64,000 bases of DNA, taken from Ferrithrix thermotolerans DSM 19514 (lineage in GTDB: Bacteria; Actinomycetota; Acidimicrobiia; Acidimicrobiales; Ilumatobacteraceae). The DNA is taken from the NCBI GenBank assembly GCA_945861025.1, contig CAMASN010000004.1, forward strand, positions 1-64,000, read 5' to 3'. The notes under the pieces were generated by a model that was not told the origin of the DNA, made no database searches, and was given only the letters and a program-made list of their open reading frames with translations. Positions 2,030 to 58,866 of this stretch are shown piece after piece. Made by a program: the position numbers and the translations under genes. How positions within the stretch are numbered: the stretch's first letter is position 1; every line of letters begins with the position of its first letter.

Positions 2030-4210
2030 TTGGTGTTCCGGTCGCGCTTGGCGTCTCAAGGTAGCGTCGTGCCCGTGGGTCATCGTCGCGACATCGAAGG
2101 GTTGCGCGCAGTTGCCGTTATCGCGGTACTGCTCTTCCATTTTGGGGTTCCCGGATTCGATGGTGGTTATGTAGGCGTCGATGTCTTCTTCGTCATCTCG
2201 GGTTTCCTCATTACGTCTCTGCTGATTCGGGAGCGATCAACCACCGGCGGCATCTCGCTGAGCGCGTTTTATGCGCGACGTATTCGACGATTGCTACCGA
2301 TCTCGGCGGTGGTGTTGGTGGTCACGGCGGTGGCCGCTGCGTTGTGGCTCGAACCCACTCGTTTGTCCGACTTGGCGCGCGACATCATGGCCGCCTCGTT
2401 GTTCTCGGTGAATTTTGTGCTGGCCAATCGTGGCACCGATTACCTTGGCGCAGCGGCGCAACCCTCGGCGGTGCAGCACTATTGGTCGCTGGCTATCGAA
2501 GAGCAGTTCTATTTGGTATGGCCCGGCCTCATTGCGCTAGTCACCATTGGTGCGCGCAACGTGCGTCGCCGTGTGGCCGCAACGATGGTGGTGCTGATTG
2601 CACTGTCGTTCACCGCCAGCATTGCGCTCACGTCGGGGCACCCATCGTGGTCATACTTCGGCCTGCACACCCGCGCATGGGAGCTTGGTCTTGGTGCACT
2701 GGTAGCGGCCGTGGTGCGTTCGGCGCACAACACCAGCCAACGCGTCCGCTCAGTCATTGGCTGGGCCGGCCTCGCCGGTGTTGGCCTCTCGGTTGTCACG
2801 TTCGGTTCGGTTGTTGCCTTCCCCGGATGGGCTGCGTTGCTGCCGGTGGTTGCTGCCGCTTGCGTGCTGTTCGCTGGTGACGATGTACTTGATGGTCCAA
2901 CCCGCGTGCTCGGCGCGCGGCCACTGCAATGGGTGGGTCAACGTTCGTATTCGCTGTACCTGTGGCATTGGCCAGCGCTCATCATCGCTCAGGCGGCGGT
3001 GGGCAACGACTTTCACCTGCAGGCCAAGATCGGTGTGCTGCTCATCGTTGTCGGTGTGGCCGACCTCGGCTATCGGTTCATTGAGAACCCGGTTCGTCGA
3101 TCGCCGCGCTTGCTCACCAATTCGGTGCTCACCTTGCGCCTTGGCGCAGCGCTGATTGTGGTTGGCGCACTCGTTGGCCTTGCGCTCACGAGTTACCAAC
3201 CCGACATCACCACCGGTGTGTTGGCCGTGTCACCAACGCTGATTGATTCGACCTCTACCACTGGGGTGACTGTCGCCACTACAGCCACCAGTACGGCGGC
3301 TACGACCACGATCGCCCAGGCGCCAGCGGGCCCATCGGCACCGTTCTCGATGGCCGCGGCCGCTCCGCTGCAGCCCATTGTCGATGCTGTGTCGGTCAAC
3401 GTGGCCCCCGACAACCTCAAGCCGCCGTTGCTCAACGCCAAGCAAGACACGAGCGTTATCTACACCAATGACTGCCATCAGTACTACAAGAGCAGTGTCA
3501 AGAAAGACTGCGTGTTTGGCGATCCCAACGGCTCGGTCACCGTTGCGCTGTGGGGCGATTCGCATGCTGCTCAGTGGTTCGTGGCGCTCGATGCAATCGG
3601 CAAGCAGCGTGGGTGGAAGGTGCTGTCGCTTACCCAAGGTGGGTGTCCGTTTCTTGATGTACTCACGTATAACCGCGACGCCAATGCCACCTTCAACCAT
3701 TGCGTTCCGTGGCGGCAGAGCGCCCGCGATTTCATGAAGCAAAGCGGCGCCAACGTGGTGTTCTTGGCGCAGTACTACGGCTTGCTGAAATCGACCGATC
3801 GTCAGCCCATCACCGTCGCTTCATGGCAGCAGCAGTTGGGGCCGCTCATCGACAGTCTGCGTGCCGATGGCATCGAGCCGATCATGCTCGGCGACACGCC
3901 TGACCCGCCGTCGGCTGTGCCGGCCTGCGTGTCGTCGCATCGGCGCGCTGTGAACGATTGCGCGCCCAAGGCTGCCAGCGATCGGGTGGTGGGTATCGAT
4001 GATGCCGTTCGCTCGATCACGTTGGCAAGCGGAACTGGTTTTGTTGAGCCTCGGCGCTGGCTCTGCGCAAACGACGTGTGTCCGGTGATCGTCGGCGACC
4101 TGCTGGTCTACCGCGACGAAAGCCATGTCTCGAACACGTTTATGCGCTCGCTCACGCCCGTGATTGATCAGGTCGTTGGTGCCGCCGTCGACACGATCGA
4201 CTCGCGCTGA
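2030..4210 (+). CDS. Membrane acyltransferase (OafA/YrhL type) with C-terminal SGNH domain
   Basis: The 726-residue protein begins with the acyltransferase-3 signature (Arg-Asp-Ile-Glu-Gly-Leu-Arg-Ala around residues 20-27, then a GxxGVDVFFVISGFLIT stretch), has about ten hydrophobic segments to residue 390, a Thr/Ala-rich extracytoplasmic linker (about 395-440), and a C-terminal SGNH domain with a GDSH block near residue 510 and a late DESH block near 690. Such two-domain proteins move acetyl groups across the membrane onto surface polysaccharide or peptidoglycan; the acceptor is unknown here. The start is uncertain: TTG 2030, GTG 2033, or GTG 2069, which alone has an AAGG about 7 bases upstream. 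Confidence 0.9.
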   Translation: MVFRSRLASQGSVVPVGHRRDIEGLRAVAVIAVLLFHFGVPGFDGGYVGVDVFFVISGFLITSLLIRERSTTGGISLSAFYARRIRRLLPISAVVLVVTAVAAALWLEPTRLSDLARDIMAASLFSVNFVLANRGTDYLGAAAQPSAVQHYWSLAIEEQFYLVWPGLIALVTIGARNVRRRVAATMVVLIALSFTASIALTSGHPSWSYFGLHTRAWELGLGALVAAVVRSAHNTSQRVRSVIGWAGLAGVGLSVVTFGSVVAFPGWAALLPVVAAACVLFAGDDVLDGPTRVLGARPLQWVGQRSYSLYLWHWPALIIAQAAVGNDFHLQAKIGVLLIVVGVADLGYRFIENPVRRSPRLLTNSVLTLRLGAALIVVGALVGLALTSYQPDITTGVLAVSPTLIDSTSTTGVTVATTATSTAATTTIAQAPAGPSAPFSMAAAAPLQPIVDAVSVNVAPDNLKPPLLNAKQDTSVIYTNDCHQYYKSSVKKDCVFGDPNGSVTVALWGDSHAAQWFVALDAIGKQRGWKVLSLTQGGCPFLDVLTYNRDANATFNHCVPWRQSARDFMKQSGANVVFLAQYYGLLKSTDRQPITVASWQQQLGPLIDSLRADGIEPIMLGDTPDPPSAVPACVSSHRRAVNDCAPKAASDRVVGIDDAVRSITLASGTGFVEPRRWLCANDVCPVIVGDLLVYRDESHVSNTFMRSLTPVIDQVVGAAVDTIDSR

Positions 4211-4228
4211 TCGCACGTTCATTGTGCG

Positions 4229-4385
4229 TTGAAAAACTTTACGAAACCCATACTTGCATTTGTTGGCAGGGAGGCGCACCATGAAGTTACAAGCAGCCAC
4301 ACCCCTTGTAAGGGGCTCGCAGACTCGATCTGCAATAACGGGCTTGCTGACTGAGGGGCACCTCCCAGAGGCGCCCCCTCGGTCG
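4229..4385 (+). other. Candidate short transcription unit (promoter, strong RBS, hairpins)
   Basis: Between two convergent genes lie a promoter-like pair (TTGAAA 4229-4234, TACTTG 4251-4256, 16-base spacing), GGAGG at 4270-4274 followed 6 bases later by ATG at 4281, a compact CCCCTT/AAGGGG hairpin at 4302-4315, and a strong hairpin at 4350-4383. The ATG opens a 96-codon frame to 4571, but that frame crosses the hairpin and then lies antisense to the CapA gene, with no recognisable protein features. It could be a small RNA, a short peptide gene, or chance signals next to a terminator. Confidence 0.3.
4350..4383. terminator. GC-rich hairpin between convergent genes
   Basis: The arm ACTGAGGGGC (4350-4359) pairs, with one wobble and one bulge, with the C-run and CTCGGT ending at 4383. 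It sits between the acyltransferase stop (4210, + strand) and the CapA stop (4406, - strand), so it could end transcription from either side. No T-run follows on either strand, as is common in high-GC actinobacteria. Confidence 0.5.
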
Positions 4386-4405
4386 CGTTCGGGGCTTGGT
4401 TCAGC

Positions 4406-5665
4406 TCACTTGGCGATGAAGTCGCCCAACACCGATGCTGTGCGGTCGAGCGATACCTGTAGCTGGGCCTTCTTGGCTGCTGACACGTTGGGGTCGGCCA
4501 AGTCTGCGAGCACGGGCCGGATCACAATGCCGTTGCTCTTATCGACCCATGTTGGGTACACCACTGGCTGATCGACAACGGCCTTGCCCGATGCGTCGAG
4601 TGCCAGCTTGACCGTCACGATCATGCCGTCTTGAGAACTTGGCGGGAAGGCCGCTCGCGTTGGGTGGTAGCTCAGCAAGTTGCCCAGACCGAATACGGTC
4701 CAAACGCCGTTGACCTTCTCGATTTTTTGCAGCACGTGAGCATGATGCCCGACGATGAGATCTACAAGGCCCGATGCAGTGATTGTGTCGGCCGCCTTGC
4801 TCTGCTGGCTGTTAACGGCCGCCACCGTTTCGGTGCCCCAATGCATGCTCACGATCACGAGCTGGGCGCCCAAGGCCCGGGCCTTTTTTGCGTCGGCGAT
4901 GATTCGCGTCGGGTTGATCTCAGCCGACCGCCATGGTTGGCCCGCCGGCAGGCTCAAGCCGTTGAATCCGAATGTGTACGACAGGTGGGTGAACTTGATG
5001 CCGTTGGCCTTGAGTACCTGGGGCTCGATTTCTTCGGGTGTGCGCGCCATGCCTGACTCGGTGATGCCGTTGGCGTCGAACGCATTCACCGTGGCGTCAA
5101 TGCCAGCCGTGCCTTGATCAAGCGTGTGGTTACTTGCGGTAGAGCAGTGGTCGTATCCGGCCTTGGCGACCGAGGCAACGATCTCTACCGGAGCACCATA
5201 GAGCGGAAATGTCGATGGCTGTTTGCCTGGGGGAGCGACGGGCACCTCAAGGTGACAGATCGCAAAGTCAACGCTGTTGAGGATGGGCTTCACAGCGGCG
5301 AACATCGGGTCGAAGTCGTATCCGTTGCCACCGTTGTTCACGGTGGCGCGTTGCCAGAGTTGGCTATGGATGAGGATGTCGCCCGAGAACGCCATGGTCA
5401 CGCCAGAGTGCGCCGGAATCGCGGTGATCGTCGGTGCGGTTGCTGGTGTTGCGGGCACCGTGGTGGCTGGGTCAGTAACGGCGCCGGGGGTTGACTGTGC
5501 AGGTGCGAGCGCAAGCGTGGTTTGTGTTGGCTCTGCATCACTGATGGTTTCGGCTACACCGGTTACATCGGCTCCGGCGCCGATCTTGTTCGAATTCGTC
5601 TTGACGGCTGCTCCACCAACGGTGGCGATGGCTATGCCAAGTGCGACAATGAGAATTCTTTTCAC
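4406..5665 (-). CDS. CapA-like metallophosphatase-fold protein, secreted
   Basis: This 419-residue protein has an N-terminal signal-like segment (residues 1-20), a Thr/Pro/Ala-rich linker to about residue 85, then the PGA_cap/CapA fold. Metallophosphoesterase-like motifs are visible: FSGDILIH, SNHTLDQG, VSMHWGTE and GHHAHVLQ, in the expected order. In Bacillus, CapA acts in poly-gamma-glutamate capsule export; most actinobacterial homologues have no proven substrate, so capsule or surface-polymer handling is an inference. GTG at 5665 overlaps the upstream gene's stop by 4 bases (GTGA), so the pair is translationally coupled. Confidence 0.85.
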   Translation of the reverse strand: MKRILIVALGIAIATVGGAAVKTNSNKIGAGADVTGVAETISDAEPTQTTLALAPAQSTPGAVTDPATTVPATPATAPTITAIPAHSGVTMAFSGDILIHSQLWQRATVNNGGNGYDFDPMFAAVKPILNSVDFAICHLEVPVAPPGKQPSTFPLYGAPVEIVASVAKAGYDHCSTASNHTLDQGTAGIDATVNAFDANGITESGMARTPEEIEPQVLKANGIKFTHLSYTFGFNGLSLPAGQPWRSAEINPTRIIADAKKARALGAQLVIVSMHWGTETVAAVNSQQSKAADTITASGLVDLIVGHHAHVLQKIEKVNGVWTVFGLGNLLSYHPTRAAFPPSSQDGMIVTVKLALDASGKAVVDQPVVYPTWVDKSNGIVIRPVLADLADPNVSAAKKAQLQVSLDRTASVLGDFIAK

Positions 5666-56599: not shown

Positions 56600-58066
<1,467 letters not shown>

Positions 58067-58119: not shown

Positions 58120-58166
58120 TTTGTTGAAGACAATTGGTTGAGGGTCGACCAATTGTCTTCAACAAA
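58120..58166. terminator. Perfect 19-bp inverted repeat with 9-base loop
   Basis: The arms 58120-58138 and 58148-58166 are exact complements (the left arm begins TTTGTTGAAG), with the loop at 58139-58147. It lies between convergent ahcY (+) and the YczE-like gene (-), so a bidirectional terminator is most likely. The stem is long and AT-rich for this genome. Confidence 0.8.
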
Positions 58167-58169
58167 ACT

Positions 58170-58853
58170 TCAGGATTGAGCAAGTGCCGCGCGCGCTGCG
58201 ATTGCGCTGCGCGTTTCGCGCGGTGGCAGAGCCAACGGTGGCAAGGTCAGCTGCACGAGTGGACCAATGCCAAACATGAACATCAGCGTGCCGATGCCGG
58301 GCCGTACCCCCAGCGCGATGGCGGCGATTCCGACGGAGAGTTCGATGCCGGTGCGGGCCTTACGCACGCTGAGCCCGCGCTGTTCTAAGCCCAGCATCAA
58401 GCCGTCTCTGGGGCCAGGACCCAATCCGGCTCCGATGTAGAAGCCGGAGCCGATGGCGATGATCAAAATGCCAGCCACGAGGTAGCCGGTGCGTACGAGC
58501 AGCCGATCGCTGTCGGGTAGGAGCGGGGCAACGAGATCGACCACAAAGCCGATCTCGAACGCGTTCAAGATGGTGCCAATGCCCGGGCGCTGCTTGAGCG
58601 GTATCCAGAGCAAGAGCAGTACGAAGCCCACTGCCTCGATGATGACCCCAACACTGATTCCGGTCTTATTGCTCAGGCCTTGATGCAACATGTCCCATGG
58701 CGCTGCGCCGAGGTGGGCTTGCAGGATCAGCGCGATGCCAGCGCCGAACAACGCCAGGCCAAATGCGCACCGAGAAAGCCGGTTCGCCCAGTCGGCTGAA
58801 GCCGAGCTGGGCGTGTATTCGCGAGCAGTTGCTGCATTGCTGGAGAAGGTCAC
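58170..58853 (-). CDS. YczE/YitT-like membrane protein
   Basis: About 227 residues with five or six hydrophobic segments (about 30-48, 75-93, 105-125, 132-150, 175-200) and the YczE/YyaS pattern: LQAHLGAAPWDMLHQGLS after the first helix and GAGLGPGPRDGLMLGL later, as a repeated loop. Such proteins are thought to be membrane transporters or regulators of sugar/peptide export, not proven. GTG 58853 is preferred to GTG 58862 because the -10 TACGGT (58866-58861) is then 7 bases upstream. Confidence 0.82.
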   Translation of the reverse strand: MTFSSNAATAREYTPSSASADWANRLSRCAFGLALFGAGIALILQAHLGAAPWDMLHQGLSNKTGISVGVIIEAVGFVLLLLWIPLKQRPGIGTILNAFEIGFVVDLVAPLLPDSDRLLVRTGYLVAGILIIAIGSGFYIGAGLGPGPRDGLMLGLEQRGLSVRKARTGIELSVGIAAIALGVRPGIGTLMFMFGIGPLVQLTLPPLALPPRETRSAIAARAALAQS

Positions 58854-58860
58854 GACCTGC

Positions 58861-58866
58861 ACCGTA
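58861..58866 (-). promoter_or_regulatory. -10 box TACGGT for leaderless YczE-like gene
   Basis: On the reverse strand TACGGT ends 7 bases before GTG 58853. Confidence 0.45.

Follow-up and report, generated by a model that had tools for sequence, protein, structure and literature searches.

The DNA between two convergent genes raises the question of whether it is only a spacer in which two transcripts end or holds a gene of its own. The left gene, on the + strand, encodes an acyltransferase-SGNH protein and its stop codon ends at 4210, and the right gene (complement 4406-5665) encodes a CapA/PGA_cap protein. The window, i.e. the whole 64,000-nt stretch analysed, belongs to a 2.9-Mb draft genome of 104 contigs with 95.6% completeness; several of the closest named relatives of its proteins carry the labels Ilumatobacteraceae, Ilumatobacter or Acidimicrobiia/Acidimicrobiaceae, and it is accordingly treated here as Ilumatobacteraceae. 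The initial annotation had read the gap as a promoter, a ribosome-binding site and two hairpins in close succession, and proposed a short peptide or a non-coding RNA; all the strings it named were found in place and the flanking genes are indeed convergent. Based on the comparisons described below, positions 4240-4392 are probably a free-standing small RNA (sRNA) gene of ~100 nt, most likely for a trans-acting regulatory RNA, and we put the probability of this reading at about 0.7. The features are collected in Table 1.

Table 1. Features of the intergenic region and of the predicted sRNA gene
Feature	Position	Strand	Remarks
Intergenic region, 195 nt	4211..4405	+	flanked by the convergent acyltransferase-SGNH and CapA genes; 7 relatives with this gene pair lack such a region
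Small hairpin CGCAC/GTGCG	4212..4228	+	just past the acyltransferase stop; paired in the computed fold
A-rich patch	4244..4246	+	conserved upstream of the -35 element (alignment A8); putatively UP-element-like
-35 element TTGCAT	4254..4259	+	TTGC in 6/6 copies (TTGCNN)
-10 element CACCAT	4277..4282	+	CAnnnT in 6/6 copies
Predicted small RNA, ~100 nt	4289..4388	+	5' end placed from the -10 element, 3' end from the terminator
Three-way junction	4295..4344	+	AGCC 4295-4298 paired with GGCT 4341-4344
Hairpin 2, CCCCTT/AAGGGG	4302..4315	+	arms 4302-4307 / 4310-4315
Hairpin 3, GCAGA/TCTGC	4319..4333	+	from fold and alignment
Terminator-like hairpin ACTGAGGGGCACCTCCCAGAGGCGCCCCCTCGGT	4350..4383	+	core nearly invariant; followed by CGCGT 4384-4388; no U-tract

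The intergenic region and its neighbourhood

By a rough gene call, the gap is the longest of nine convergent gaps in the window, the other eight measuring 11-103 nt, and such gaps often contain a strong hairpin. One of them, a 103-nt gap between the convergent genes 56600-58066 and 58170-58862, holds a long near-perfect hairpin (58123-58164, ~19 bp with a 3-nt loop), which is likely a bidirectional terminator. The acyltransferase-SGNH/CapA pair with abutting stops is a conserved neighbourhood (window 2030-5665, L004, L042, L047, L048, L057, L058 and L078). CapA proteins 57-62% identical to that of the window also occur in records titled 'Bifidobacterium breve' (L044, L049 and L069) and 'Acidobacteria' (L046), and these titles look wrong. 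In the seven relative loci with the pair (the duplicates L003, L022 and L023 being excluded), the stop-to-stop distance is only -14 to +10 nt and the element is absent from all of them, so the 195-nt stretch is, on this sequence comparison, an extra between two complete genes that is specific to the window's lineage among the loci compared. The small hairpin next to the acyltransferase stop falls outside the model match at 4240-4392 and hence outside the conserved unit, and could possibly be the 3' end of the acyltransferase gene.

Homologous copies and their distribution

Nucleotide BLAST with the intergenic DNA found one copy only in its own genome, where relaxed searches of the two halves gave nothing beyond matches of 14-26 nt. 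It hit one of the nine genomes of the window's genus and two of the 397 genomes of an order sample, the second by a 21-nt match in G204 that was not confirmed by the RNA model in L041. Plain BLAST was thus unable to show the family, and it was the tblastn rows of the putative peptide that led to the homologues. These rows (E <= 0.1) occurred in 28 of 200 genomes, counting the window's own, as compared to 14 of 200 for the reversed peptide; among them, G000, G479, G509 and G499 were shown to carry the element, whereas five further loci (L135-L139) proved to be chance matches when scored with the RNA model. Two loci, L133 and L134, match the window at the DNA level (74.6% over 122 nt and 90% over 40 nt) and were combined with it in model R1, which then found copies in G499, G469 and, weakly, G535. 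A second model, R2, returned the same six copies; its other rows resemble terminator hairpins, the weak ones (L148-L152 and L160, among 8 of 12 alignments) being similar to generic terminators.

All five homologues lie in one other genus of the same family (g11, 15 genomes), at other loci. The element was thus found in 6 of 221 genomes of the family, 1 of 9 in the window's genus and 5 of 15 in g11, and its distribution is patchy. The absences are soft, because the whole-genome searches with the RNA models, made within the family, used stricter filters and a ceiling of 13 scored candidates per genome, which limits their sensitivity. Rfam 15 gave no match for the window at the gathering score; at relaxed thresholds there was none on L133, L134, L143, L144 and L145, and one chance-level sR40 match in window 4150-4460.

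The patchy presence and the change of locus from genome to genome could also be expected of a mobile or decayed DNA element, such as a MITE-like unit or what is left of a plasmid control RNA, the RNA of which now plays no part in the cell, and a second copy of the terminator beside an MMPL gene in G499 (see below) would fit the same idea. We consider this unlikely, since each carrier genome has one full copy, no second copy was found in the window's genome, no flanking repeats were seen, and promoter spacing and pairing are kept. The element was also unmatched in phage and plasmid records; a promoter-plus-AGCCAC pattern matched 30 viral contigs, none of which was confirmed by R2 (best E 0.21), and the terminator pattern matched no viral contig.

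Genomic context of the copies

The neighbours of the unit change between copies. The unit lies between the acyltransferase and CapA genes in the window, between genes for a 3-hydroxyisobutyrate-type dehydrogenase and a CitE-like lyase in G479, between MMPL and CitE-like genes in G509, and between cytochrome c and DUF2231 genes upstream and a CitE-like gene downstream in G469. In G499 it follows a cytochrome c gene and precedes an MMPL gene, with a terminator copy before the CitE-like gene, and in G535 an HTH-like gene (below the Pfam cut-off) that points away lies upstream of it and a glycosyltransferase gene downstream. On the 3' side of the CitE-like gene, the full element was present in three of the 15 g11 genomes and the terminator copy in G499, two of the 15 loci (L164 and L174) offering a flank of only 168 and 201 nt. 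Such changing neighbours tie the unit to no cis target and argue for a trans-acting product. A cis-regulatory leader or riboswitch was considered and rejected: a gene in the same direction lies directly downstream in one of six copies only (the MMPL gene of G499), and the other five have a convergent gene there.

An RNA processed from the 3'UTR of the upstream gene, or simply the end of its transcript, would be in keeping with the same-direction gene that ends upstream in five of the six copies, in G499 ~22 nt before the -35 element. The upstream genes differ, however (acyltransferase, MMPL, dehydrogenase, cytochrome c, DUF2231), the distance between the -35 and -10 elements does not vary, and the closest gene candidate upstream of the G535 copy (706-about 1413) points away on the opposite strand, so that the unit there cannot be its 3'UTR. 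This origin is therefore very unlikely.

Promoter and the apparent start codon

In alignment A8 of the six copies, which is fitted to the model and leans towards its structure, the order is an A-rich patch, TTGC, a spacer, the -10 element, a discriminator, the AGCCAC block, hairpin 2, hairpin 3, GGCU, the terminator and CGCGT. The predicted promoter reads TTGCNN-N17-CAnnnT, with a spacer of exactly 17 nt in all six copies. The -10 boxes are CATCAT in three copies and CACCAT, CATAGT and CACAAT in the others; they carry CAnnnT instead of TAnnnT, i.e. lack the usual first T, and TAnnnT boxes are present in some tRNA upstream regions of the family. Conservation is 0.89 in the -35 element, 0.63 in the spacer, 0.86 in the -10 element, 0.57 in the discriminator, and 0.92 in both the AGCC block and the terminator. 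Weakly conserved spacer and discriminator segments between and behind conserved hexamers fit a promoter, not a coding start.

The initial annotation had rightly expected a promoter here and misplaced it. Its TTGAAA (4229-4234) and TACTTG (4251-4256) pair is not conserved and is at chance level: TACTTG matches TATAAT at 2 of 6 positions, equally good sites number 184 on the + strand and 187 on the - strand of the window (371 counted in all), and the pair is missing from the list of the consensus promoter scan of the window. TACTTG overlaps the conserved -35 element TTGCAT.

It had also pointed to GGAGG (4270-4274) followed after 6 nt by ATG (4281-4283). This arrangement is present and uncommon (GGAGG-N4-9-ATG occurs six times in 64 kb, both strands), and a short peptide gene starting at this ATG would have good Shine-Dalgarno (SD) spacing in the window; its frame was also what led to the first homologues. 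However, GGAGG is kept in none of the five homologues, i.e. in one of six copies, the codon at this place is ATG in three copies, ATC in two and GTG in one, and indels occur throughout the frame, so that SD, start and frame are not conserved. The frame has no Pfam match and runs antisense into capA, and the chance loci and the reversed-peptide control described above also speak against it. The first two letters of this ATG are in fact the last two bases of the -10 hexamer CACCAT. A peptide product is thus extremely improbable; of the two products first proposed, it is the RNA that is supported, as the homologues keep promoter, structure and terminator and have no conserved ORF.

Structure of the predicted RNA

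The whole 172-nt stretch folds modestly better than its shuffles (z -1.5). For the predicted RNA (4289-4386) z is -4.26 and none of 200 shuffles is as good; from the predicted +1, the other copies have z of -3.06, -2.83, -3.27, -2.96 and, in G535, -4.70, all six beating their shuffles. The bodies without the terminator are unremarkable in stability (z 0.0 to -1.8). The junction closed by AGCC/GGCU appears in the own minimum-energy fold of five copies (window, G509, G479, G499 and G469) and is not formed in that of G535. In the window it is extended by AGC 4292-4294 pairing with GCT 4346-4348. The outer stem GGCGC/GCGUC of R1 has its 5' side within the promoter and was therefore discarded.

All counts were taken from the model-fitted alignments A8 and A10; in alignments A5 and A7, MAFFT had placed the window copy wrongly around hairpin 2. 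In A10, 94.9% of the cells pair, a value that leans towards the structure because the alignment was fitted to it. Three of the five modelled pairs of hairpin 2 are changed on both sides among the copies, i.e. by compensatory changes, and the covariation score of A10 exceeds that of every one of 500 shuffles and of all slid versions. Covariation is clear in helix 2 only: helix 1 and most terminator pairs are invariant, and helix 3 has unpaired cells. The compact CCCCTT/AAGGGG hairpin and the GC-rich terminator-like hairpin, both singled out at the outset, are real and conserved among the copies; the check then proposed, on conservation of hairpins and start codon in relatives, came out positive for the hairpins and negative for the start codon.

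Terminator and relatedness without it

The predicted terminator hairpin is present in all six copies, without a U-tract. Similar GC hairpins, CGAGGG...CCCTCG with a GCGT/CGCGT-like tail and no U-tract, were seen in L150 (1578-1617), L152 (1501-1550, - strand) and L160 (1549-1593), those of L150 and L152 sitting behind tRNA genes; a GC hairpin with such a tail is perhaps a terminator style of this bacterial family. In G499 the terminator of the element occurs twice, within the element (L143 1467-1618) and downstream of the MMPL gene (L146 1501-1541), and the two copies flanking the MMPL gene suggest recombination at the hairpin. The left arm of the terminator contains CACCUCC, which we take to resemble the anti-SD of 16S rRNA; as a mechanism this was set aside, for it lies within the stem and is lost in G535. 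U-lacking (I-shaped) terminators, GC hairpins without a U-tract, are a class described for Streptomyces clavuligerus (PMC8269248). The hairpin of the window is like these terminators of GC-rich actinobacteria in this respect, whereas it differs in the recurring CGCGT tail and in its link to a conserved promoter and RNA body.

Because this type of terminator recurs in the family, after tRNA-Arg in L150 and tRNA-Pro in L152, the relatedness of the window copy was examined without it. Only the five g11 copies, truncated ahead of the terminator, went into model R3, and the window copy was left out. With filters off it found 4240-4347 of the window at 39.6 bits (E 1.9e-8), and the runner-up site in 64 kb, at 11.2 bits, lay 28 bits behind. 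Without any covariance model, the global alignment scores of window 4240-4348 against the five relatives summed to 55. The null from 25,558 window stretches had a mean of -62.5 (sd 15.9), the best unrelated stretch reached 7, and the single stretch above 55, with a score of 57, was this very site displaced by one base. Stringent pairwise local alignment with the terminator removed is weak: of 1000 shuffles, the number that score as high is 9, 34, 45, 83 and 289, the row with 83 being that of G499, whose sequence was truncated in this comparison at an inner GAGGGG. Since R3 and the global alignment are positive and the single local alignments weak, the relation of the window copy is, at the level of sequence, clear as a family and remote pair by pair.

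These results bear directly on whether the gap contains nothing but a bidirectional terminator for the two convergent genes, the likeness of promoter and hairpins being chance in an unconstrained spacer. Few parts are as well conserved as the terminator core, matches to the terminator alone exist (L146, L148, L149 and L151), similar hairpins follow tRNA genes, and a strong hairpin is common in the convergent gaps of the window. This explanation is nevertheless strongly weakened by the terminator-free model, which finds the site without having seen the window copy, and by the global-alignment null, which agrees with it; moreover, the relatives with the same gene pair do without such a gap. We regard it as quite improbable.

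Discussion

Comparison among the copies supports the homology, the constant promoter spacing, the structure, the terminator and the lack of a conserved ORF of the predicted sRNA gene. In the proposed mechanism, a promoter of the housekeeping-sigma type, TTGCAT-N17-CACCAT, would start the RNA near 4289, the RNA would fold into a three-way junction with two hairpins, and it would end at the GC-rich, U-lacking-type terminator hairpin (~4350-4388). We infer the transcription and its exact ends, and the RNA may then act in trans on other RNAs or on a protein.

The unit resembles intergenic bacterial sRNA genes in general, with its own promoter, a length of ~100 nt, hairpins, a terminator, an intergenic site and no ORF, all as predicted here; this likeness is one of kind and not of family, for no Rfam match was found. 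Ms1 RNA has been reported from most orders of Actinobacteria (PMC9130861); it is related to 6S RNA and longer (~230 nt in S. coelicolor). The RNA predicted here would be alike as a non-coding regulatory RNA, a role that is presumed, while it differs in its ~100 nt and three-way junction. An identity with Ms1/6S was rejected, as the 6S-like architecture of about 200 nt or more is lacking and Rfam gave no match. Searching the open-access literature by title or abstract, we found no paper on such an RNA in Ilumatobacter, Acidimicrobiia or Ilumatobacteraceae. More tentatively, and doubtful as yet, the unit could be the founding example of an undescribed class of structured RNAs restricted to Ilumatobacteraceae, with its own protein or RNA partner, carried between genomic sites as a self-contained cassette from promoter to terminator.

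As judged from sequence comparison, the unit probably represents a new sRNA family of a known kind. What looks like an SD-ATG may, as in this case, belong to a promoter. With its conservation and its clear predicted promoter and structure, the sRNA gene would offer a first testable regulator in this group.
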